From: Planctomycetia bacterium
Lineage (GTDB): Bacteria; Planctomycetota; Planctomycetia; Gemmatales; Gemmataceae
DNA length: 64,000 bases
Reading direction: 5' to 3'
Assembly: GCA_005772955.1 (NCBI GenBank)
Contig: SXID01000056.1
Span: 1 to 64,000, forward strand
Shown: positions 1,957 through 56,082 of the stretch, one piece after another
Numbering within the stretch: position 1 is the stretch's first letter
How the letters are laid out: every line of letters begins with the position of its first letter
The notes under the pieces: generated by a model
Seen by the model: the letters and a program-made list of their open reading frames with translations, nothing else
Databases searched by the model: none
Told to the model about the DNA's origin: nothing
Program-made: the position numbers and the translations under genes

Positions 1957-3359
1957 TGTCCGCGACTCAGATGAACACACTTCTCGAACGACAGCGGTTC
2001 CTCAACCGCCGGTGGTTCCTCCGCGACTGCGGTGTCGGACTCGGCGCGCTCGCACTCGCGGACATGGCTCGCGCCGACGCGCCCAAGCCCAAGACACACC
2101 ATGAACCAAAGGCCAAGCGCGTTATCTACCTCTTCATGGGTGGCGCGCCGAGCCACCTGGAACTGTTCGACAACAAGCCACAGCTCGCGAAGTTCGATGG
2201 CACACTCCCGCCGCCGGAACTCGTGAAGAACTACCGGGCCGCATTCATCTCTCCGAACTCCAAACTGCTGGGGCCGAAGTACAAGTTCCAGAAGTTCGGG
2301 AAGAACGCGACTGAGTTGGGCGAACTCTTACCGCACCTTGGCGAAGTCGTCGATGATATCGCCATCGTGAAGTCGATGCACACGGATGCGTTCAACCACG
2401 CGCCGGCGCAGATCATGGCGCTGACTGGGCACCAGCAATTCGGCCGCCCGAGCGCAGGCGCGTGGGTCACCTACGGTCTCGGCAGCGAGTCGAAAAACCT
2501 GCCCGGCTTCGTGGTATTTAGCAGCGGCAATAAGGGGCCGAGCGGCGGGAACTCGTGCTGGGGCAGCGGCTTCTTGCCGTCAAGCCACGCGGGCACGTTG
2601 TTCCGCTCCGCGGGCGACCCGGTGCTGTTCCTGAGTAACCCCGCTGGCGTCGATGCCGCGATGCAAAAGGACTCGCTCGACGCAATCAACGCGCTGAACA
2701 AGAAGCGCCTCGACGTGGTCGGCGATCCTGAGATTTCGGCGCGCATCGCGGCTTACGAGATGGCCGGGCGCATGCAGACGAGCGCGCCCGAACTGATGGA
2801 CCTCTCGAAGGAAACGAAAGAGACTCTCGCGATGTACGGCGCGGAGCCGGGCAAGCCGAGTTTCGCGAACAACTGCCTGCTAGCGCGCCGGCTCATCGAA
2901 CGCGGCGTGCGGTTCGTGCAACTGTTCCACGAAGCCTGGGACCACCACGGCGGCCTCACTAACGGCCTCAAGACCGAGTGCGGCAAGACGGACAAAGCAA
3001 GCGCCGCGCTCGTGAAGGACTTGAAACAACGCGGGCTGTTGAAGGACACGCTGGTGATTTGGGGCGGCGAGTTCGGGCGCACGCCGATGGTGCAAGGCGG
3101 CAACGACGGACGCGACCACCACCCGAACTGCTACTCCGTGTGGATGGCCGGTGGTGGTGTGAAACCGGGGTTGGTGCTCGGCTCGTCCGACGAACTCGGC
3201 TTCAACGCGGTGGAGGACAAGGTTCACGTTCACGACCTGAACGCTACCATCCTCCACCTGCTCGGACTGAACCACGAGAAGCTGACGTACCGGCTGCAAG
3301 GCCGCGATTTCCGGCTGACGGATGTGCACGGCGAGGTGGTCGAGAAGTTGATCGCGTAA
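1956..3359 (+). CDS. DUF1501 protein with twin-arginine signal
   Basis: A protein of 467 residues. Near residue 20 is a twin-arginine-type leader ([18 protein letters not shown]) followed by ADA, so it is probably exported folded through Tat. Segments [26 protein letters not shown] and NDGRDHHP are typical of DUF1501, an alkaline-phosphatase/sulfatase-fold family very common in planctomycetes and usually encoded beside DUF1549/1553 proteins. The reaction is not known. The gene overlaps the upstream DUF1080 stop codon by one base, so this is a three-gene operon. Its TAA stop forms the beginning of a long inverted repeat. Confidence 0.9.
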
Positions 3360-3458
3360 CGTAGTAGGCACACTCCGTGTGCCGTGGCTTCACGGGCCGC
3401 ACCGCAAGGCGTTCTTGAGTTGCGATGCGACGGCACACGGAGTGTGCCTACTACGTTA
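3357..3458. repeat. Long inverted repeat, family A, arms include the stop codon
   Basis: The left arm TAACGTAGTAGGCACAC continues to about 3384 and pairs with GTGTGCCTACTACGTTA ending at 3458. Each arm contains its own small hairpin (GGCACAC...GTGTGCC), so this is a palindrome of palindromes. It starts within the TAA stop of the DUF1501 gene. A second copy of the family lies at 6467-6565. Confidence 0.85.
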
Positions 3459-6466: not shown

Positions 6467-6565
6467 AAAGTAGTAGGCACACTCCGTGTGCCGTTGCCGC
6501 GCCGCGCAAAACGCCCGTGATTTTGACCGGAGCAATAGCGGCACGCGGAGTGTGTCTACTACTTT
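6467..6565. repeat. Long inverted repeat, family A
   Basis: AAAGTAGTAGGCACACTCCG near 6467 pairs with the complementary block ending ACTACTTT at 6565, with about 45 bases between the inner hairpins. Arms share GTAGTAGGCACACTCCGTGT with the copy at 3357-3458. It lies 30 bases after the nitroreductase stop. Confidence 0.85.
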
Positions 6566-6634: not shown

Positions 6635-9175
6635 GTGTCCAAACACGACGAAACCAGCGATCCGCCCCCATCCGCCACGCCCACGTTCAGCCAACAGCCC
6701 GACGCGAACGGCACCCTTCTGACAATAAACGAGCAAACCGTCGCAGTATTGCCCGCGATTCCCGGTTACGAGTTGCTGGATAAACTCGGTTCCGGTGGGA
6801 TGGGCATCGTTTATCGCGCGCGGGAGATCGCGTTCAACCGCGATGTCGCGATCAAGATCCTGCGCGTGCGATACCGCGCCGAGGCGATCAGCACGCGGCG
6901 GTTCCTCGAAGAAGCCCGCGTCATGGGACAGCTCCAGCACCCCGCCATTCCGCCCATTCACCAGATCGGCACGCTCGCTGACGGGCGCCCGTTCCTCGCG
7001 ATGAAGCTCATCAAGGGCGAAACACTTGCGAACCTGCTTGCGGACGCATCCGCGAGCCGCGGCATGTTCATCGCGGCGTTCGCGCAGGTGTGTCAGGCGA
7101 TCGCGTACGCGCACAGCCGCAAGGTGATTCACCGCGACCTCAAGCCCGCGAACGTGATGGTCGGCGCCTTCGGCGAAGTGCAGGTCATGGACTGGGGACT
7201 GGCGAAGTTCCTCACGGATTCGACAAGCCCACAACGCGAGCAAGGGCCAGATGTCAAAGACGAACGCGTCGAGATTCAGACAATGCAATCGCCGGATTTG
7301 GCGACGCTAGCCGGGAGCGTGCTGGGTACGCCCGCTTACATGGCCCCGGAGCAAGCAGCGGGCGAGGTGGACAAGACCGACGAGCGTTCAGACGTGTTCG
7401 GGCTAGGCGCGATCCTGTGCACGATCCTGACGGGCAAGCCGCCGTATTCGGGTACGAGTCCCGAAACAATCCGACTGACGGCGATTCGCTGGGAATCCGC
7501 CGACACGCTAGCCCGTCTGGATGCGTGCGGTGCGGATGCGGAACTGATCGCGTTGTGCAAACGATGCCTTAGCGTGGAGCAAAACGCGCGTCCTCGCGAC
7601 GCGGGCGAAGTGGCGAAGGCGGTAGCGGCGCACCTGGCTGCGGTGGAGGAGCGGGCTTGGCAAACAGAACTGGATCGCGTGCGCGCGGAAGAACGACGGA
7701 AACAACGGCGGGTTCGGTTCGCGTTGACCGGGGTGGTGGCGCTGTTGCTCGCGCTCACCGGCTTCGGGGCTGGCCTCGTCTCGCTGTGGCGCAACGCGGA
7801 AAGCGCGAAGAAGCAACTCGGCGCCGAAAAGAAACTAACGGAAAACGCCCACGACGAAGCCGTGCGCCTGAAAGCCGACGCGGACGCGGGGCGTGTTGAA
7901 GCGGATCGTTTACGCGGCGTCGCGGAGAAAGCAGAGGCGAAAGAAATCCAGGCACGCAAGACGCTGGAAGTGTTCGAGTACGGCCGCACGATTCAGGTTG
8001 CCCACCAAGAACGGCGTGACAACAACATTCTCGGTGCCGGGACTTTACTCGAAGGCACCCAACCAGAGTTGCGTGGCTGGGAATGGTACTACGTCCACCG
8101 CTTGTGCAACGGCTCACTCCTCACCCTCAAAGGGCACACGGCATGGGTGACGTCCGCGTCGTTCAGCGTGGACGGTTCACACATCGTCACGGGCAGTTGG
8201 GACAATACGGCGAAGGTCTGGGACGCCAAAACGGGCGCCGAGGTCCGCACCCTCAAGGGGCACACGAATTTGGTATCGTCCGCGTCGTTCAGCGTGGACG
8301 GTTCACGCATCGTCACGGGCAGCCGTGACACAACGGCGAAGGTCTGGGACGCCAAAACCGGGACCGAGATGCTCACCCTCAAAGGGCACACGGAATGGGT
8401 GTATTCCGCGTCGTTCAGCGTGGACGGTTCACGCATCGTCACGGGAAGCCACGACAAGACGGCGAAGGTCTGGGACGCCAAAACCGGGACCGAGTTGCTC
8501 ACCCTCAAAGGGCACACGGAATTTGTGACTTTCGCGTCGTTCAGCCCAGACGGTTCACGCATCGTCACGGGCAGCCGTGACAAGACGGCGAAGGTCTGGG
8601 ACGCCAAAACGGGCGCCGAGGTCCGCACCCTCCAAGGGCACACGGACTTTGTGTATTCCGCGTTGTTCAGCGTGGACGGTTCACGCATCGTTACGGGAAG
8701 CCACGACAAGACGGCGAAGGTCTGGGACGCCAAAACCGGGGCCGAGGTCCGCACCCTCCAAGGGCACACGGCATGGGTGTCGTCCGCGTCGTTCAGCCCA
8801 GACGGTTCACGCATCGTCACGGGCAGTCAGGACAATACGGCGAAGGTCTGGGACGCCAAAACCGGGGTTGAGGTGCTCCCCCTCAAGGGGCACACGGAAT
8901 GGGTGACGTCCGCGTCGTTCAGCGTGGACGGTTCGCGCATCGTTACGAGCAGCCGTGACAATACGGCGAAGGTCTGGGACGCCAAAACCGGGGCCGAGAT
9001 GCTGACCCTCAAGGGGCACACGCACTTGGTGTATTCCGCGTCGTTCAGCGTGGATGGTTCACGCATCGTCACGGGCAGCCACGACAATACGGCGAAGGTC
9101 TGGGACGCGAGGCCACTGGACCGCGAGTTCCTGCTAAAGGAACTGGCCTCGCCGCCACGAGTCCTGAGCCGCTGA
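6635..9175 (+). CDS. Membrane Ser/Thr protein kinase with C-terminal WD40 propeller
   Basis: A protein of 846 residues starting at GTG 6635, seven bases after GGAGG. The kinase domain covers about residues 48-340: glycine loop [14 protein letters not shown] lysine, catalytic loop [13 protein letters not shown] in place of DFG, and MAPEQA. A transmembrane helix lies near 361-385 ([19 protein letters not shown]), then a charged coiled coil, then eight 42-residue WD40 repeats. The kinase should face the cytoplasm and the repeats the other side, or both may lie inside; the sequence does not decide. Pkn-type kinases with WD40 sensors are a planctomycete hallmark. The repeats are nearly identical in DNA as well as protein. 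No obvious partner gene is adjacent. Confidence 0.92.
8120..9127 (+). repeat. Eight tandem 126-bp WD40 repeats
   Basis: Eight consecutive 126-base units each encode LTLKGHT...ASFSVDG, then SRIVTGS..(N/K)[10 protein letters not shown]. Units differ at only a few codons (positions after GHT, VDG or PDG, SR/SH/SW/SQ). Eight blades exceed the usual seven of a closed propeller. DNA-level near-identity points to recent amplification or gene conversion. Confidence 0.95.
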
Positions 9176-12212: not shown

Positions 12213-14843
12213 ATGAAACCCACACTCCTCTCTCTCGCGTCGCTTCTGTTCCTCGCCTCATGCGCGCGCGCGGCGGACACACCGAACGTCGTGCTGATCT
12301 TCACCGACGATCAAGGCTACGGTGATGTCGGCTGCTTCGGCGCGAAGGGGTTTTCGACACCGAACCTCGACAAACTCGCGAAGCAAGGCGTCAAGTTAAC
12401 CGACTTCCACAGCTCGCAGCCGGTGTGTTCCGCGAGCCGCGCCTCACTCATGACGGGCTGTTACGCGAACCGCATCGGCATCCACGGCGCGCTCGGGCCG
12501 AACTCGCGTCACGGCATCCACAGCGACGAAACGACCCTTGCCGAGGTGTGCAAGTCGAAGGGCTACGCAACCGGCATGGTCGGGAAGTGGCACCTCGGCC
12601 ACCATCCGCAGTTCCTCCCCACTCGCCACGGCTTCGATTCGTACTTCGGACTGCCGTACTCCAACGACATGTGGCCGCACCACCCGGAGGCCAAGAAAGG
12701 CACCTATCCGAAGTTGCCGTTGTTCGAGAACGAGAAAATCATCGACGCGGACGTGACACCGGAAGACCAGCCGAAGCTTACGACGCAGTACACCGAGCGC
12801 GCGGTGAAGTTCATCGCCGATAACAAAGCGCGCCCGTTCTTCTTGTACCTGGCGCACTCGATGCCGCACGTCCCGTTGTTCGTGAGTGACAAGTTCAAAG
12901 GCAAGAGCAAGTCCGGGCTGCACGGCGACGTGATGATGGAAATCGACTGGTCGGTAGGCGAGATCCTCAAGGCGCTCGACGTCCACAAACTCGCGGACAA
13001 CACGCTGATCATCTTCACGTGTGACAACGGCCCGTGGCTCAGTTACGGGAACCACGCGGGCACTGCGGGCGCGCTGCGCGAGGGCAAGGGAACCGTGTGG
13101 GAAGGCGGCGTGCGGGTGCCGTTCATCGCGCGCTTACCGGGGAAGATTCCCGCGGACTCCGAGTGTCACATTCCCGCGATGATGATCGACATCCTGCCCA
13201 CAGTGGCGAAGCTCATCGGCGCCGAACTGCCGAAGCACAAGATCGACGGCAAGGACATCTTCCCGCTGCTCGCGAGCGCCCCAGACGCGACCTTCGCGCA
13301 CGACGCCTACTTCCACTACTACGCCACGAACGAACTACAAGCAGTGCGCACCAGCAAGTGGAAGTTGATGCTTCCGCACACGTACCGCACGATGGAGGGT
13401 CAGGCGCCTGGCAAGGACGGTACACCGGGCAAGTACAAGCTGGTGAAGATCGAGAAGCCCGAGCTTTACAACTTGCTGAAAGACCCCGGTGAATCGAAGA
13501 ACGTCGCGGACGCGAACCTCGACGTTATGAAGCAACTCCTCGCGCTCGCGGAGCGGGCGCGCGAAGACATGGGCGATTCGCTCACCAAGCGCACCGGGAA
13601 GGGAGTAAGGGAACCGGGACGGTTGCCACCGGAAGAGAAGAAACCTCTCCCCCCCTCCCCTAAGAAGGGAGGGGGAGAAAATCCGGCTCCCCCTCCCTTC
13701 TTAGGGGAGGGGGCTGGGGGGAGAGGTTCTTTCCACACCTCCGAACTCGTCTTCCCGCTTCACAAGCAGCACAACCACGCGCCCGGCATCGTCGAGTGCC
13801 CCAACGGTGACCTGCTCGTGTCGTGGTATCGCGGCAGCGGCGAGCGATCCGCCGATGATGTCGCCGTGTACGCCGCCCGCAAGAAAGCGAAAGAGGAGAA
13901 GTGGAGCGACGCGTTCCTGATGGCCGACACGCCGGGCTTCCCGGACTGCAACACCGCGATGTGGATCGACAAGGAAGACAAACTCTGGCTGTTCTGGCCG
14001 GTCATCCTCGCAAACTCGTGGGAATCGTGCCTCACACACTACCGCACGTCATCGGACTACCAGAAGGACGGCGCGCCGAAGTGGTCGTGGCAGGGGAATA
14101 TCCCGCTCAAGCCAAAAGACTTCGAGGAGGTGATGCTCCGCGAGTTCGGCGCCTGGAAGAAGCAAATCCGCGACGCGACCAAGCTCCCGGTTACACTCAG
14201 CGACGAACTCGTGAAGAAGCGCGTCGGCGACAAACTGCTCTCGCGCCTCGGCTGGCAACCGCGTTGCAAGCCAACCGAGTTGAAATCCGGGCGCATCTTG
14301 CTGCCTCTGTACTCGGACACGTACTCCGCGGGCCTCATGGCGATCAGCGACGACAACGGCAAGACCTGGACCGCGTCGCAACCGCTCGCGGGGTTCGGGA
14401 GCATTCAGCCGTCGGTGCTCGAACGCAAGGACGGCACGCTGGTCGCGTACATGCGCGAGAACGGCGCGTTCAAGACGATTCGCGTTTCGGAATCGAAGGA
14501 CAAGGGCGAAACGTGGGGCACGGTCACGTCGAGCGAGTTGCTAAATCCCGGAAGCGGCCTCGACGCGGTGCGCCTCGCGAGCGGCAACTGGCTGCTCGTT
14601 TACAACGACACCGTGAAGGGCCGCAACAGCCTCGCGGTGTCGCTCTCCGACGACGAGGGCAAAACCTGGAAGTGGACGCGCCACCTGGAGAAGCAGGAGA
14701 GCGGTTCGTACCACTACCCGGCGGTGATCCAGGCGAAGGACGGCGGCATCCACGCGGTGTACAGCTACTTCGTCGCGGGTGGCAAGAGCATGAAACACGC
14801 CCGCTTCAACGAAGCGTGGGTGAAGGAAGGCGACCCGAAGTGA
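12213..14843 (+). CDS. Sulfatase-sialidase fusion, joined by a palindromic repeat
   Basis: A protein of 876 residues. Residues 1-21 are a signal peptide with a lipobox-like LASC. Residues 23-465 are a type I sulfatase: [11 protein letters not shown] metal ligands and CSASR at 72-76, where Cys72 would be converted to formylglycine; GKWHLGH and CDNGP follow. Residues 508-876 form a BNR sialidase with Asp-boxes [16 protein letters not shown] and SDDEGKTW. The two parts meet at residues 476-506, which are encoded entirely by a nested GC-rich palindrome ([12 protein letters not shown]... [14 protein letters not shown]). The sialidase half has no signal peptide of its own. Together it could remove sulfate and then a sugar from a sulfated glycan; this is inference. 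The start has no strong Shine-Dalgarno, but the signal peptide fixes it. Confidence 0.88.
13640..13731. repeat. Nested GC-rich palindrome inside sulfatase-sialidase gene
   Basis: The left half AAACCTCTCC..., the right half ending GGGGAGAGGTTCT. Each half contains a hairpin around CTAAGAAG or CTTCTTAG, and the halves are complementary to each other. It is read in frame at the junction of two domains. The right half is translated [14 protein letters not shown], the same peptide as in the copies at 26157 and 53482. Confidence 0.9.
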
Positions 14844-24003: not shown

Positions 24004-27000
24004 ATGGAAATCGCACCCGCCGACCTGACCCGCGTTCGCGAACTGTACATGCAAGGGCGCTACCGCCAGGCTTACGACGCGGCCACCGCTCTCGGCCCGC
24101 TGCGGGAGTGGTCCGGTACGGCCGCGCGGCTCATCGGTGGGCGGCTCGCGATCCAGCTTGCCGCGCCGAAACTCGGCCGACGGATGCACCTGATCGCGTT
24201 CCGCGCAACGCCCGCGTACCCCGAAGCGATCTACTACCACGCACGCTACCGCCTGGAGCGGTTCGGTCCGCTGTCCACGTGGCGGTTCATGCGGGACCAC
24301 CCCGACTGGTCCGACTCGCCACCGGAACTTCACGCGGACTGGATCGCGCTGAACGCGTTCCTCGTTGCCCGGCTGCGCGACTTCGACCGCGCCGAACGAC
24401 TCCTGAACCGCGCCGAGGCGATCACCCCGGATCGGCCGTGGCCGTGCATCGAGCGGTCGAGCGTGTACGAGTTCGCCGACCGACTTGACGACGCGATGAC
24501 CGCCGCACGCCGCTCTTTGGAGATTCACCCGTGGTTCAGGCCCGGCGTGCAGTCCGTCGCGCACCTTCTGTTGCGTCAAGGCCGCGACCGCGAGACGCTG
24601 GACTTCCTCACGGAAGCGAACCGCAACCTGGAAAGCGGTCTTGTGGTGGCGCAACTCGCCGCACTCCAGACCGACCTCGGCCACTACACCGACGCCCGGC
24701 GCACGCTCGACCGGTACGCGGAACTGTCGCCGCTGATCGAACCGGAAGTTGCGAAGTGGCTGACGGCACGCCGCGCCGACTCCGCGTACTTCCTGGGCGA
24801 ACCCACTGTCGCCGCGCGCTTCGCCCGCGAGGTGAAGGACGAGTTCTACGACCGCTTCGCGGAGCGGTTGGAGAACCTCTCCCCCCAACCCCCTCCCCTA
24901 AGAGGGGAGGGGGAGCCGGATTTAAGCCCCTCCCTTCTTAAAGGAGGGGTTGGGGAGGGGTTGCTTGCCACCCCAAGAAACATCATCAAGCTCGACTTCC
25001 CGCCCGCGCCCGCGGCACCCACGGTGTACGAACTGCTCGCGCGGTTCTGGAACCACCCACTGCCGAGAATGAGCGAAGGCGTTCCGCCCGCCGATGGTTT
25101 GCCGGACGCGGGCGAGCGCCGCCGCGCCGAAGAAGCAGGCTGGGTCGCGCGCGAGTTCACGCTCTCGCGCGATGCCGCTGTCGCGCTCATTGAGCGGAAC
25201 GTGCCTTTTATTGTCACGCTCGTTGAGGCCGGTTTCTCGCAACCGCGGTTGTGCGTCGGCGCCGACGCAATGCGCGGCTCCCTCTCCATCATCGACGGCG
25301 CGGATCGTAGGCCCGTTGATGCGCCGGTAGATTCGCTTGTGAAGCGGTTCGCGCCGTTCGGCCCACGCTGCCTCGTGATCGTGCCAGCATCGGAAGCGGG
25401 TGCGTTCGACGGCCTGCCAGAACTGGCGGAATCCGACCCGCGCGAATCGCTCTACGCGGTACAAAAACCGCTGCTCGCGCACGACCGCGACGCGGCCGAA
25501 GCCGCGCTTCGCATCATGCGAGACCGCTTCACCGACAGCAAGTTCACCCTCTATGGCGAACTCGCACTGAGCCGCTACGATGCGCACCCGCTGCGTCTCC
25601 TCGCACTGTACGACGCGCTGCTCGCGAAGAACCCGCACGAATCAACGTGGGTGCTCTTGAAGGCGAACGTGCTACGCGAACTGAACCGCATGACGGAGCG
25701 CGAGGCGCTGCTCGAAACCGAAGGCTCGCGCCTCGACGCGGAGCCGATGGTGTCTCAGACGTTCGCGCAGTCCATTCTTCCGTTCCCACACCGACAAGCG
25801 GACGCAACGCGCATCTTACGCCGCTCGGTGCAGGACCGGCCAACGGCCGCCGCGGGTTACTATCTGCTCGCAACTCAGTGGTGGGAAGAACGCCACTTCG
25901 ACGAGGCCGCCGAACTGTACCGGTTCGCCTGCACGCTCGAAGAGCGCGAAGACCAGTTCGCGGACGCCTACTTCCGCGCGGCCCGCGCCACGGCACAAGT
26001 GCCAGAAGCGCTCAGGCTGTTCCAGCAGCGATCCGGCCGCGCCGCGGTGCCGGTGCCGGCCGCGACGCGCGCACTGTTCCACGCGCTGATGGATCGCGAC
26101 GAACCCCAACAGGCCGCAACCGCGGTCAATCTGGCGATCCGCAAGTTGCAGGAATCTTCCCCCCCACCCTTCTTGGGGGAGGGGGTTGGCGGAAAAGGTT
26201 CTTCCGAGCGATCCCAGTCGCTCGGCGAGTTACTCCTCTTCCGCGCGGAGTGTCACGCCTCCGCGGACCGGTTCACGGAGGCCGACGTCGACCTCACCGC
26301 TGCGAAGCCACTCGTTCAACCGGTCGCGTGGCACAAGGCCGCGGCACGGGTCTCGCGCACCAAACCTGACGTGGCAACCGCCGGCGCGCACTACCTCGAA
26401 GCGATCAAACTCGAACCGCTCTCGATGGAATCGCACCGCACGCTCACCGCTCTGCTCGCAGACACGGACGGCCGGGCGGCGGCACGCACGCACCTCGCGC
26501 AGTCGTGCCAGCGGTTCCCGCACTACTACCCGCTGCTCAAGCTCCACGCCGAGTTCCTTTCTGGCGATACGGACGCGGACGCCGACCGCGCGATTCAAGA
26601 TTTGCTCGCCGAACACCCGAACGACGCCTGGGCACTTCGGCAGCGCGCGCTCGTGCTAGCCGACCACAAGCGCGCCGACGAGGCGCTGCGCGATGTGCTT
26701 CGCGCGGGCGAACTCGAACCAAACCACCTGTGGTACTTCTCGGTGCTGGCGCAGGTTCACAAGCGCGCCGACCGCACGGCCGACGCACTGACCGCGATTC
26801 GCGACGGGCTGCGACGCAACATCGACCAGGAGCCGCTGATCGCGGAGCTGATGCAACTCAGCCGCGGGCGCCGCGAGAAGCGCGACGCGCTGGAGTTCGT
26901 GGAAACCGAACTGCGCCGGCAGCCGCACACCGGCGAAGGTTTGGTTGCCTTTGTCGGCACCTCGCACCATGTCTTCCAGGGCGCCGGCAGCGACCCGGAC

Positions 27001-33383: not shown

Positions 33384-33447
33384 GTTTAGCGTCGGCCCCA
33401 GCGGGGCCGTCTTTCGGACGACGGCCCCGCTGGGGCCGACGCTAAAC
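33384..33447. repeat. Near-perfect long hairpin after the RRM gene
   Basis: GTTTAGCGTCGGCCCCAGCG continues through GGGCCGTC and pairs without mismatch over about 28 bases with the block ending CGCTGGGGCCGACGCTAAAC; the loop is about eight bases. It could terminate transcription from both sides, or be a repeat element. Confidence 0.85.
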
Positions 33448-40416: not shown

Positions 40417-40807
40417 GCGCAACGCTCCTGGTCAACCAGCGGTTGGAAAGGTGTGCGAACGACGCCTCGCGAGCGATGGGATTCCTCCCCATCGTCGTCA
40501 GCCAACGTTCGCGCGTACCGGTTGGTGTGAGCGTTGCTTCCGCCTCGGACGAATGTCCCTGCGCGAGCGAGCCGCGCGGCGGGGAGCCAATCTCGACACC
40601 TCTTCTCCGGTTGGGTCATTACTGACCCGAACGACGCGCTTTCGGGTTCCGGTCCGTTGTCGCGTCGTGTTTGGCCTTCGGGTTCCGGTCCGTTGGCCCA
40701 ACGGGGCGGATGGTAATTCAGTTTTCTCGCAACCGACAAGGCCACTTTCTTGACGCGATGTCAAAATCCATTTTGTTACGTTGCGCACTCAGGTCAGTCA
40801 CGCAGAA
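40417..40807. other. Intergenic leader before parS cluster, with 19-bp direct repeat
   Basis: No gene is supported. TTCGGGTTCCGGTCCGTTG occurs twice, at 40641-40659 and 40677-40695, a period of 36 bases. I see no dnaA boxes. Confidence 0.5.
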
Positions 40808-40982
40808 TGTTCCACGTGGAACGGTCCGCTGGGCCGAGCGGAATTCGCCTAACGTTCCACGTGGAACGGTCCGCTGGGCTGAGCTGAATTCGCCTAACGT
40901 TCCACGTGGAACGGTGCTGGAAATGCCGAATCCGCCGTCCGCGATGGTCATTCTCACATCCATCAACGTTCCACGTGGAACG
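40808..40982 (+). promoter_or_regulatory. parS: Cluster of four parS centromere sites
   Basis: Four copies of the 14-bp palindrome GTTCCACGTGGAAC stand at 40809-40822, 40854-40867, 40899-40912 and 40968-40981. This is the core of the bacterial chromosomal parS sequence bound by ParB. The first three are 45 bases apart and share flanking GGTCCGCTGGGC...GAATTCGCCTAAC, so they arose by tandem duplication; the fourth is 69 bases further. The parB gene starts 63 bases after the last site. ParB loading here probably nucleates chromosome segregation and could also repress parB. Confidence 0.93.
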
Positions 40983-41044
40983 TACCCCCAAGCACCTCAC
41001 CGATCACGTCCCCGATTCCACTTCTCACAGCCGCAGAGATTGCT

Positions 41045-52214: not shown

Positions 52215-52850
52215 TTGAGCAAGACCACCCGCGCTGCCGTTCCCAACGACGACGGTCCTTCACCTCGCTCGTGCGATCTCGCACCGCTACCGGTCGATCA
52301 CGAACGCTTGCGCCGCGCGGTCCGCGAGATTCTGATCGCCGTCGGCGAAGACCCGGACCGCGAAGGGTTGCTCGACACCCCGGACCGCGTTGCCCGCATG
52401 TACGCGGAGATCTTCGCGGGACTGCACACCGATCCGGCCATCTACCTTCAGAAGACGTTCACGCAGAAGCACGACGAAATGGTGCTGGTGAAGGACATCG
52501 AGTTCAGCAGCATGTGTGAACACCACCTTCTCCCGTTCAGCGGGAAGGCGCACATCGCGTACCTGCCGAACGGCCAGATCGTCGGCCTCTCGAAGCTCGC
52601 TCGCGTGGTCGATGCGGTGGCGTGCCGGCCGCAGGTTCAGGAGCGCATGACGGAAAACATCGCGGACCTCGTGATGACACACCTGAAGGCGCGCGGCGTG
52701 GGCGTGGTGATCGAGGCGAGCCACTCGTGCATGACCATCCGCGGAGTGCGCAAGCCGGCCGCGATGACCATCACCAGTTCGATGCGCGGCGGCTTCCTCG
52801 ACAACCCGGCCACACGCGCCGAGATGATGGCGCTGGTTTTTGGGAAGTAG
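52215..52850 (+). CDS. folE: GTP cyclohydrolase I
   Basis: A 211-residue protein. The zinc ligands are in [10 protein letters not shown] (Cys101, His104) and [21 protein letters not shown] and [11 protein letters not shown] complete the type I enzyme. It makes dihydroneopterin triphosphate from GTP, the first step to folate (and possibly other pterins), as a decamer in the cytoplasm. The start is TTG at 52215, eight bases after GGAG; the first 25 residues are not part of the fold and no ATG fits. Its TAG stop begins a family C inverted repeat. Confidence 0.93.
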
Positions 52851-52930
52851 GCGAGCGGGGCGCGTGAGCCCCTGATTGCTCCGGGATGGTTGCTTGTATC
52901 GCATCAGAGGCTTACGCCCCCCGCTCGCCT
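52848..52930. repeat. Long inverted repeat, family C, starting in the folE stop
   Basis: TAGGCGAGCGGGGCGCGTGA (with GCCCC) pairs with GGGGC-type sequence ending CCGCTCGCCT at 52930. The family shares GGCGAGCGGGG..CGT(A/G)AG with 10596-10690. It ends shortly before the start of the following oxidoreductase gene. Confidence 0.82.
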
Positions 52931-52944
52931 TCAGAAAAGCACCC

Positions 52945-55900
52945 GTGCTCGACCAAAAGCAAATCACCGACGACCTCCACGGCCAGTTCCGCGGGCGGTT
53001 GCACTTCGATCGGCTCACGCGCGGCCTGTACGCCACCGACGCCAGCCCGTTCCAGATCGAACCGCACGCCGTGGCCGTTCCCGAAGACACCGAGAGCGTT
53101 TCGGTTCTCGTGCGCTACTGCCACGATCACGCGATACCCATCATCGCGCGCGGCGCGGGAACCGGCCTCGCGGGCGAATCGCTCGGACCGGGTGTCGTAC
53201 TCGACCTGAGCGTTCACTTTCGGAGCATTTTCACGGTCGGCTCGGACACCGTGACCGTGCAGTCGGGTGTGGTGCTGAACCAGCTCAACGCGGAACTCGC
53301 GAAGACCGGACGCCGGTTCGCGCCGAACCCGGCCAGTTCCGCGACCTGCACCATCGGCGGGATGATCGCGACGAACGCGAGCGGCGGCAACGCGTTCCAC
53401 CACGGCTACACGCGCGACTACGTCGCGAGGTTGGAGGTGGTGTGGGACAACGGCGAAGTGGCTTGGATTGGCGCGGTGCAGAACCTCTCCCCCCAACCCC
53501 CTCCCCTAAGAAGGGAGGGGGAGTCAGAACACTCTGCGAGTCACGACGCGTCGCCGGCGCGCGAAGGTTCGGCTCCCCCTCCCTTCTTAGGGGAGGGGGT
53601 TGGGGGGAGAGGTTCTTCGCGAACAAACTCAATAACCCAAGAAGTCACGAAACTCCTCACCAAGAACGCGGAGCGCATCGCGATCACGCAAACACGCACG
53701 CCGTTCGACCGGTGTGCGTACCAGCTTCACGGAGTTTTGGGCGGGAACGGCATAGAGTTAGCGAAACTGCTCGTCGGCAGCGAAGGCACGCTCGCGATCA
53801 CCACGCAAGCAACGCTGCGCACGATCCCGGTCGCGGGCGGAACGTGTCTTACGTTGCTCGGCTTCCCCACGCTCGACGACGCGGTTCGTGCGGGACTCGC
53901 GCTCAGGCGTTGCGGCCCGGTCGCGTGCGACCTGCTCGACCGGCGGTTGCTCTCGCTCACCCGTGGGGCCGGAATCCCGGATGTCGGTGCCGCGATTCTG
54001 GTAGTGTTCGAGGGCGACACCGAGCGAGAAGCGGTCGAGCGCGCGTGGGGCGAGGTCGAATCTCTTCAGCGCACACACGTCCTCCGCATACTCGCGGAAC
54101 CGACGTGCTCCCCGGCGGGCATCGCGTACATCCGCGCCGTCCGCGATGTGGCCGTATCTGGACTGTACGCGCAGAGCGGAGCACGCCCGGTCGCCTTCGT
54201 GGAAGACGTGGGCGTGCCGGCCGATTCGCTGCCGGAGTTTCTCACCAAGGTTCAAGACATCCTGAAGAAGTTCGAGACGAGCGGCACGTTCCTCATTCAC
54301 GCGCTCACGGGCCAGGTTCACACGCGACCCTTACTCGACCTCAACAAACCCACCGACCGCGCGAAACTGTGGCCGCTTGCGGAGGCGGTGCATTCACTGG
54401 CACTGGCTCTGGGCGGTACGGTCAGCACCCAGCACGGCACCGGCATCGCACGCACGCCGTGGGTGGAGCGACAGTACGGCCCGCTCGTGCCGGTGTTCCG
54501 CGAACTCAAGCGCGTCTTCGACCCAAAGGGCATTCTGAACCCCGGCAAGATTGTCGGTCCTGATCCGAGCCGCGAAGCGTGGCCCCTGCGCCCTGAGGTC
54601 GGCGGACCGAGAGCAGAGGACAAAAGACAAAGAACTGAGGTCGAAGAACCAGAAAGTTCCGTTAGCCGCGAACCAGCGGTGATCGCGCCCGCCAGTGTGC
54701 CCTTGTTTGTCTGGGGAAACTCGTCCCCAGCGCAAGAAGTCGCGCGGTGCAACGGGTGCGGCAACTGCCGGACTCGCACCGCCCCGGAACGCATGTGCCC
54801 GAGTTTCCGCGCGAGCGGGAGCGAACACGCCACACCACGCGCGATGGCGAACATGCTCCGTGTCCTCACCGATCCGACCGCGGCGACTCCGGAAGAGGTG
54901 CGAGCGGTCGCTGAACTGTGCGTGAACTGCAAGATGTGTCGCGACGAGTGCGACGCGCGCGTGGACATCCCCAAACTCATGCTCGAAGCGAAGGCCCAGC
55001 GCCACGCGGAACACGGTTTGGAGCGCGGCGACTGGCTCCTGGCCCGCGCCGAAGGGCTTGCCGGTATCGGCAGCAACTTCGCCCCGATCGTAAACGCGAT
55101 GCTCGGCCGCCGCTCCGTGCGCTGGTTCATGGAGAAACTGCTCGGCCTCTCGCGCCAGCGCCGACTCCCCGCGTTCACGATCCGTACTTTCTTCCGCCGC
55201 GCCCGCGGGGTCGGGCTGACCAGGCGGTTTCAAGTTCCAAGTTCCAAGTTCCAAGTTGAAAACCCGGCTTCCAACTTGGAACTTGGAACTGCTGGAACTT
55301 GGAACTCGACCCGAAAGGTCGCAATCTTTGTCGATGTGTTCGCAGCGTACAACGACCCCCTCATCGGCATGGCCGCGGTCGCGGTGTTGCAGCACCACGG
55401 TATCGAGGTCTACGTCCCGCCGCGACAGGTTGGGAGCGGCAGCACACCGCTCGCGAAAGGCGACATCGACGCGGCCCGCGATGCCGCCCGCCGCAACATC
55501 CGGGTGTTTGCGGATCTTACACGCGAAGGTTACCGCATCGTGTGCCTGGAACCGACTTCGGCCCTCATGCTGACGCAAGACTACCTCGACATCCTTAACG
55601 ACCCCGACGCCGCCACGGTCGCAGAGCACACGGTCGAACTCACCACCTACCTGGGCGAACTACACGCAGCCGGGCGCTTGCGCACAGACTTCCGCACTCT
55701 CGACGTCACACTGGGGCACCACATCCCCTGTCACTTGAAAGCACTCCGCGGTCCGACAAACTCACCGAGTTTGTTATCGCTCATCCCCGGCGTTCGCGTG
55801 CATACGATAGATGCGGGCTGCTCGGGGATGGCGGGCACGTGGGGCCTGAAGGCCGAAAACTACGAAACCTCACTCGCGGCCGGCGCCGGGATGCTCGCGG

Positions 55901-56082
55901 AACTGAACCGTCCGCGCGTGCTGTTCGGTTCGACAGAGTGCAGCGCGTGTCGGATGCAGATGGAACAGGGCAGCGGCAAGCGCACGCTCCACCCAGTGCA
56001 ATATCTCGCGTACGCGTACGGGCTGCTGCCCGAACTCGAACCGCGATTCCACCGCCCACTCGGCGACCTCGTGAGCGACTGA
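52945..56082 (+). CDS. FAD-linked oxidase/Fe-S oxidoreductase fusion (GlcD-GlpC type) with in-frame repeats
   Basis: A protein of 1045 residues from GTG 52945. An FAD-binding domain (ARGAGTGLAGES, CTIGGMIATNASGGNAFHHG) is followed by a GlcD-type C-domain (HALTGQVHTRPL, STQHGTGIART), two 4Fe-4S motifs (CNGCGNC...C and CVNCKMCRDEC near 600-670) and a CCG-type Fe-S reductase domain (DAGCSGMAGTWG, STECSACRMQ). This is the YdiJ/D-lactate dehydrogenase arrangement that oxidises a D-2-hydroxy acid and passes electrons to quinone or an acceptor. Three different repeats are read in frame, at about residues 180-224, 551-573 and 763-787, all in linkers. The frame upstream of 52945 is within a family C repeat, so the GTG is the likely start, although ribosome binding is weak. 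Confidence 0.88.
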   Translation: MLDQKQITDDLHGQFRGRLHFDRLTRGLYATDASPFQIEPHAVAVPEDTESVSVLVRYCHDHAIPIIARGAGTGLAGESLGPGVVLDLSVHFRSIFTVGSDTVTVQSGVVLNQLNAELAKTGRRFAPNPASSATCTIGGMIATNASGGNAFHHGYTRDYVARLEVVWDNGEVAWIGAVQNLSPQPPPLRREGESEHSASHDASPAREGSAPPPFLGEGVGGRGSSRTNSITQEVTKLLTKNAERIAITQTRTPFDRCAYQLHGVLGGNGIELAKLLVGSEGTLAITTQATLRTIPVAGGTCLTLLGFPTLDDAVRAGLALRRCGPVACDLLDRRLLSLTRGAGIPDVGAAILVVFEGDTEREAVERAWGEVESLQRTHVLRILAEPTCSPAGIAYIRAVRDVAVSGLYAQSGARPVAFVEDVGVPADSLPEFLTKVQDILKKFETSGTFLIHALTGQVHTRPLLDLNKPTDRAKLWPLAEAVHSLALALGGTVSTQHGTGIARTPWVERQYGPLVPVFRELKRVFDPKGILNPGKIVGPDPSREAWPLRPEVGGPRAEDKRQRTEVEEPESSVSREPAVIAPASVPLFVWGNSSPAQEVARCNGCGNCRTRTAPERMCPSFRASGSEHATPRAMANMLRVLTDPTAATPEEVRAVAELCVNCKMCRDECDARVDIPKLMLEAKAQRHAEHGLERGDWLLARAEGLAGIGSNFAPIVNAMLGRRSVRWFMEKLLGLSRQRRLPAFTIRTFFRRARGVGLTRRFQVPSSKFQVENPASNLELGTAGTWNSTRKVAIFVDVFAAYNDPLIGMAAVAVLQHHGIEVYVPPRQVGSGSTPLAKGDIDAARDAARRNIRVFADLTREGYRIVCLEPTSALMLTQDYLDILNDPDAATVAEHTVELTTYLGELHAAGRLRTDFRTLDVTLGHHIPCHLKALRGPTNSPSLLSLIPGVRVHTIDAGCSGMAGTWGLKAENYETSLAAGAGMLAELNRPRVLFGSTECSACRMQMEQGSGKRTLHPVQYLAYAYGLLPELEPRFHRPLGDLVSD
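53482..53616. repeat. Nested GC-rich palindrome inside the FAD/Fe-S gene
   Basis: Complete copy: AACCTCTCCCCCCAACCCCC at the left, GGGGGTTGGGGGGAGAGGTT at the right, each half with a CTAAGAAG / CTTCTTAG hairpin, and 54 bases of unrelated sequence between the halves. Translated [14 protein letters not shown] at the left and [15 protein letters not shown] at the right. Confidence 0.92.
54601..54655. repeat. Low-complexity in-frame insert in the FAD/Fe-S gene
   Basis: GGACCGAGAGCAGAGGACAA with AAGACAAAGAACTGAGGTCG after it encodes GPRAEDKRQRTEVEEPESS. The AGAGGACAAAAGACAAAGAA core has seven-base periodicity, like other heptamer repeats here. Composition differs from the surrounding enzyme, and it lies between the FAD and Fe-S domains. 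Confidence 0.5.
55231..55306. repeat. Heptamer-based palindrome inside the FAD/Fe-S gene
   Basis: (AGTTCCA) tandem units at 55233-55258 pair with (TTGGAAC)-type units at 55271-55306. It is read in frame as FQVPSSKFQVENPASNLELG and following residues, in the linker between the Fe-S domain and the C-terminal CCG domain. Confidence 0.85.

Follow-up and report, generated by a model that had tools for sequence, protein, structure and literature searches.

Palindromic repeats that are read as part of proteins are known above all from Rickettsia, as the Rickettsia palindromic elements or RPE (Ogata et al. 2000, 2002; for reviews see PMC2229807 and PMC10969869), which comprise several families of about 100-150 bp that lie in frame and are free of stop codons. 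Roughly half of the RPE copies are intragenic, in many conserved genes (PMC2229807, PMC10969869), and their arms are reported to lose identity over time (PMC6649704). Intragenic GTAG/CGTC REPs have been described as dimers inside ORFs, with uvrA among the targets and linkers proposed as tolerant places, and two Xanthomonas species carry different REPs at about the same recB site (PMC3733652). The REPINs of Pseudomonas combine two inverted palindromic units and a variable spacer into one long hairpin, and they are described as extragenic and RAYT-associated (PMC3116915). In the mitochondria of nematomorphs, near-perfect inverted repeats with matched arms are gained and lost within coding genes between species (PMC6649704).

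The repeats reported here come from the Gemmata group, and no description of them in Gemmata was found among the papers searched. RPE and the related Wolbachia repeats are closest to them in behaviour, and it is on behaviour that the likeness rests. The host phylum differs from that of RPE, the Gemmata group having large free-living genomes; several families here use the same linkers and replace one another between species; and a shared old copy of one family, the GC doublet, retains 44/44 paired arms in the genome under study (G000). With the intragenic REPs (PMC3733652) our repeats share dimers in ORFs, a location in linkers, uvrA as a host and differing repeats at one site, but the GC family differs in lacking the GTAG/CGTC tag and the RAYT link, and in its high intragenic share in G000. 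The architecture is that of REPINs, whereas GC doublets are often intragenic and occur in a carrier genome without any Y1_Tnp match. Nematomorph arms encode conserved protein, whereas the arms here would amount to extra linker peptide and belong to dispersed families. We regard the addition to what is known as well supported: a family of its own, in a phylum far from that of RPE, with a high intragenic share in G000, linkers shared by families and turnover at single sites.

In the window, that is the whole stretch of 64,000 nucleotides analysed, one uninterrupted ORF (52876-56082, forward strand; GTG at 52945 is the likely start) holds a 137-bp GC palindrome, a purine heptad tract and a TTCCAAG palindrome. 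This agrees with an earlier note on this DNA, which had described one oxidoreductase gene carrying three repeat types in frame. The features of the locus are as follows, the three inserts being referred to as sites 1, 2 and 3.

52849..52930, no strand assigned: further palindrome GGCGAGCGGGG...CCCCCGCTCGCC, just 5' of the host start codon
52945..56082, forward: host gene (1045 aa), GlcD-like FAD-linked oxidase fused to a GlcF/GlpC-like 4Fe-4S / CCG-type protein
53480..53523, forward: site 1, GC doublet, left arm; hairpin CCCCCTCCC-CTAAGAA-GGGAGGGGG with outer tail, read as 14 aa; family at about 40 genome places
53524..53572, forward: site 1, GC doublet, variable centre, 49 nt; strongly diverged from sister species G001 despite an identical left arm
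53573..53616, forward: site 1, GC doublet, right arm; 100% reverse complement of the left arm, read as 14 aa
54601..54655, forward: site 2, linker 2, degenerate purine-rich heptad tract C-AGAGGA-C-AAAAGA-C-AAAGAA-C; several congeners have clean heptads there
55224..55310, forward: site 3, linker 3, TTCCAAG-heptamer palindrome, read as RFQVPSSKFQVENPASNLELGTAGTWNS

The GC palindrome, which had been reported as complete and nested at 53482-53616, consists of two 44-nt arms (53480-53523 and 53573-53616) that are 100% complementary, without a mismatch, and 49 nt apart. Its predicted folding energy is -121.6 kcal/mol as RNA (z = -13.8 against shuffles) and -71.5 as DNA (z = -15.0). It thus has the length of a long stem-loop repeat of about 100-150 bp, as in RPE, and the form of a doublet of inverted palindromes, as in REPs and REPINs. 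The heptamer palindrome, placed by the note at 55231-55306, was recovered at 55224-55310 and folds as RNA at -50.9 kcal/mol (z = -9.7). At site 2 the folding test gave no palindrome (54601-54655, z = -0.33), and the best lag of the tract is 7 (z = 3.0), a modest period-7 signal that is weak by itself. Across the genus period 7 peaks at this site, with a mean match of 0.44 at lag 7 against about 0.30 at most other lags; the corresponding lag-7 match at site 3 is 0.38 against about 0.29. The low-complexity insert claimed for site 2 is real as a heptad tract, while in part it is an ordinary variable loop. Cyanobacterial STRR heptamers are tandem 7-bp units; the heptads here have the same unit length, but they are arranged as palindromes and are found within coding linkers.

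A match to the host gene was present in 41 of the 41 relatives searched. Pfam domains in the protein are FAD_binding_4 (40-175), FAD-oxidase_C (302-536) and Fer4 (598-672), and the insert residues are approximately 180-224 for the GC palindrome, 553-571 for the heptad tract and 761-788 for the TTCCAAG palindrome, so that all three lie between or outside the domains. An AlphaFold2 model of the enzyme was built from 30 orthologues (mean pLDDT 83, pTM 0.82). Segments with pLDDT below 50 were confined to 179-222, 553-582 and 765-788, with merely 541-545 and the C-terminus in addition. Because these segments coincide with the inserts, the latter are predicted to be disordered loops, the rest of the enzyme being well folded, and their disorder suggests that they are exposed at the surface. 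The placement between conserved domains that the note described was thereby borne out.

Orthologues of the host gene from 19 congeners were aligned and the DNA was read at each site (L-numbers denote loci and G-numbers genomes). Strong folding (z<-3, 120-nt windows) was found across these orthologues in 24% of windows at site 1, 6.7% at site 2 and 8.6% at site 3, compared with 0.8% in the remainder of the gene (1520 windows). Ten species carry GC doublets or pieces of them at site 1, with species-specific arms. Other palindromes at this site are AAGCCGC in L042 and L048, a GTCATTC heptad palindrome in L038 and GAGCCGGGAGC in L043; the site is empty in L044-L047, and L037 was given no family call. 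At site 2 many species have heptads, namely AGAGGAC, AGGAGAC, AGAGGTC, AGGGGAC, AGTGGGC or AGGAAAC, with (AGAGGAC)x4 in L036 as a cleaner version of the window tract, and palindromes are GGGTATC in L043 and CCCCAACGGGG in L040 and L046. The heptads of site 3 are TTCCAAG in L030, CAAGTCG in L031, and CCGCATT in L038 and L046. The family found at a given site differs between sister species, and the tree requires a minimum of 7 changes at site 1 and of 5 each at sites 2 and 3, family states having been assigned by eye. That more than one repeat family can enter genes, as the note had argued, is supported by these differing palindromes and heptads at the same three places.

Long linkers within the genus mostly hold recognisable repeats, and orthologues without an insert are shorter by about 38 aa at site 1 and by some 20 aa at site 3; the difference at site 2 is less clear. 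This result departs from the unrelated but equally long linkers at all three sites that the note had named as the mark of ordinary variable loops. Presence of a repeat at a site also followed its presence in the genome. The GC family was detected in 14 of the 19 congeneric genomes and went undetected in 5; a GC doublet occupied site 1 in 10/14 genomes holding the family and in 0/5 without it (Fisher p about 0.01, calculated by hand and indicative, as the species are related). Matches to the CCGCATT heptad numbered 55 in G008, 64 in G003, 11 in G004 and 1 in G000, and it is only in G008 and G003 that this heptad is found at site 3. Arrays of AGAGGAC occur in 12 of the 19 congeneric genomes and of TTCCAAG in 10. 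Perfect long AGAGGAC arrays of more than 15 units were observed in congeners at G012:C1:2814-2937 and G018:C635:3-126.

Within G000 the GC family gave 112 BLAST rows, corresponding to about 40 places, and arms at unrelated loci are up to 100% identical over 45-47 nt; the TTCCAAG family is found at about 25 places. Sites were fetched from two genomes (60 in G000, 40 in G007) and called intragenic, strictly or leniently, when they lay within an ORF with coding-like flanks by a simple codon-usage test. In G000, 18/40 GC copies are clearly in genes by the strict call and 26/40 by the lenient call, which includes weak cases. Random placements in the window gave 39% and 48%, respectively, and the GC family is therefore not depleted from genes. 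About half to two thirds of the G000 copies appear to be intragenic. When scored with the G000 model, just 5-13 of 40 GC copies in G007 passed. Copies of TTCCAAG elsewhere in G000 are intergenic except for 0/20 strict and 1/20 lenient calls, so entry into genes is frequent for the GC family and hardly ever seen for TTCCAAG. GC copies bordered on either side by coding sequence of one strand kept the same open frame in 18/19 cases (G000) and 5/5 (G007), in total 23/24, where about one third is expected by chance. Many in-frame, stop-free copies in conserved genes, as in RPE, are accordingly a property of the GC family and not of the TTCCAAG family.

Besides the host gene, the GC family is found in about 20 other genes of G000. 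Element-bearing ORFs above NCBIfam cut-offs are AroC, FolC, HpnE, QueG and an STM4011-type radical SAM protein; hosts matched by Pfam are UvrA, a polyprenyl synthetase, a CoaC-like flavoprotein, a two-domain ABC ATPase, a P-type ATPase and a sulfatase. In aroC the doublet is carried by G000 and G001 only. The folC linker holds differing palindromes in seven species (G000, G001, G003, G012, G018, G015 and G016) and measures 28-35 aa without a palindrome in G005, G007, G008, G009 and G013; in G015 and G016 the palindrome is of the same type as that at 52849..52930 of the window. The description of the oxidoreductase gene as a trap tolerant of insertions holds in so far as sister species fill the same linkers differently, but the gene is not unique in this, given the other genes and the turnover in folC. 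A further GC doublet in the window (13637-13733) lies in frame between the sulfatase and BNR-repeat domains of one ORF. At 24872-24918 a single GC unit is open in frame (16 aa) within a long ORF, the coding score being weak on one side. A MobA-DUF559 fusion ORF (L120 / L137, G000:C11:3218-3783) contains two separate GC elements, with weak coding scores. In the orthologue L039, TTCCAAG-like heptads were observed in the 5' flank directly ahead of the start, which means that a single locus can hold intergenic as well as linker copies.

The site-1 doublet is common to G000 and G001, and its centres are related. Divergence of the gene between these species is 14% over all bases and 33% at fourfold sites, compared with 3/88 in the arms and 0 in the left arm, and the indels inside the element are 3 nt each. 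Arm conservation therefore exceeds that expected from neutral drift, and homogenisation, re-insertion or hairpin constraint is needed. The site-1 doublet of G007 matches the arm consensus of its own genome and is eroded in the close relative G009. The GC arms are thus kept or renewed. Concerted evolution of arms within an element was considered and is unsupported overall: in G000 the own right arm is 0.909 similar compared with 0.920 for arms of other copies (own higher in 11/24), and in G007 own similarity is slightly higher (0.919 vs. 0.903). Since the two arms of an element in G000 match each other no more closely than they match those of other copies, conversion by such copies or re-insertion would explain the renewal better than self-correction of the hairpin.

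We consider it likely that the inserts derive from dispersed repeats, palindromic and heptad, as copies or as what is left of them, and that such repeats survive in genes only in frame and in disordered linkers. Observed here are their repeat nature, dispersal and frame keeping, the disorder of the sites, the turnover between species and the correlation with the resident family. Palindromic and heptad repeats would multiply in Gemmata-group genomes, with new copies arising widely, and intragenic copies would be kept only if they are in frame, free of stops and located in a disordered inter-domain linker. Such copies may then be transcribed and translated as extra disordered peptide, probably neutral. 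As the linkers seem to accept nearly any sequence, they would be filled by the family that happens to be abundant in a species, and later copies would replace earlier ones. A bolder version, which we put forward tentatively and think somewhat doubtful, is that several unrelated families are inserted, replaced and homogenised across coding linkers by a mechanism independent of RAYT, and that resident selfish DNA, not selection on the protein, sets the linker residues of essential enzymes.

The sites could instead be ordinary fast-evolving loops in which slippage and palindrome-forming template switching act locally, no dispersed element having arrived. The disorder of the linkers, heptads suggestive of slippage, and the unrelated long linkers at site 2 in several congeners (68-78 aa without a clear repeat in L032-L034, L037, L044 and L045) would agree with such local growth. 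The same GC arms and TTCCAAG palindromes are nevertheless common to dozens of unrelated loci, presence at site 1 tracks presence of the family in the genome, and such structures are almost absent from the rest of the gene. Local growth is largely refuted for sites 1 and 3, and as a general account we find it improbable.

It is similarly unlikely that the GC doublets are REPINs moved by RAYT (Y1 HUH) transposases. The doublet-of-hairpins architecture is REPIN-like (compare PMC3116915), RAYT-type genes are present in the genus, and the outer end of the doublet has GGGGAGAG, in agreement with GGGGWSAS, a motif reported for the TIRs that adjoin RAYT relatives (PMC3733652). Against this, the unit ends lack a GTAG or CGTC tag, the outer ends reading AGAACCTCTCCCCCC...; the single-contig complete genome G007 has about 50 GC copies and zero Y1_Tnp matches; and 36 Y1 loci scanned for doublet arms or heptads yielded no adjoining doublet, just stray short motif matches. 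The GC family therefore has neither the RAYT association nor the tag by which REPs and REPINs are recognised. The transposase search covered the Y1 family, and among the compared congeners no empty site was close enough for a target-site duplication to be read.

Other repeats were observed in the window. A separate REP family (GTTTAGCGTCGGCCCC) is present at 33384-33447 and occurs as an inverted pair beside a Y1_Tnp/RAYT-type gene, L083 (G000:C106), with which it likely constitutes a genuine REPtron. This pair (GTTTAGCGTC) was the only clear REP pair seen next to a Y1 gene, and its family is not the GC family. The palindrome GTAGTAGGCACACTCCGTGTGCC has two copies (3357-3458 and 6467-6565) with GTAG at the end and is probably a true GTAG REP. 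At 40783-40983 a 45-bp unit is tandemly repeated on the palindrome GTTCCACGTGGAAC (core x4), and at 8118-9108 there are eight 126-bp tandem repeats, 86% alike and coding-like, of WD40 type by eye.

That the inserts are selected for a benefit to the enzyme or mRNA, through stability, dosage or localisation, is very unlikely: between G000 and G001 the arms have changed less than the gene around them, as selection would have it, but close relatives carry an unrelated insert or none at the same site, and the same repeats lie within unrelated enzymes. The byp hairpins of yeast mitochondria are bypassed by the ribosome. Splicing, excision or bypass leaving the protein without the palindromes is scarcely credible here, even with such stable hairpins within essential genes, because bypassed or spliced elements need no frame, whereas the open frame was kept in 23 of the 24 copies with coding flanks on one strand and the indels of the site-1 element preserve it.

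Protein-coding palindromes have so far been treated mainly as a peculiarity of Rickettsiales, with scattered REP cases elsewhere. Under our preferred reading, that of dispersed repeats surviving in tolerant linkers, a free-living genus has dozens of copies in housekeeping genes, and its linkers, which related species have left empty, filled or filled differently, offer a natural experiment on the conversion of selfish DNA into protein sequence. The system allows tests of the insertion mechanism, of fitness cost and of the maintenance of hairpin arms. For annotators it carries the warning that repeat DNA accounts for many of the proline-rich "variable regions" of these proteomes.
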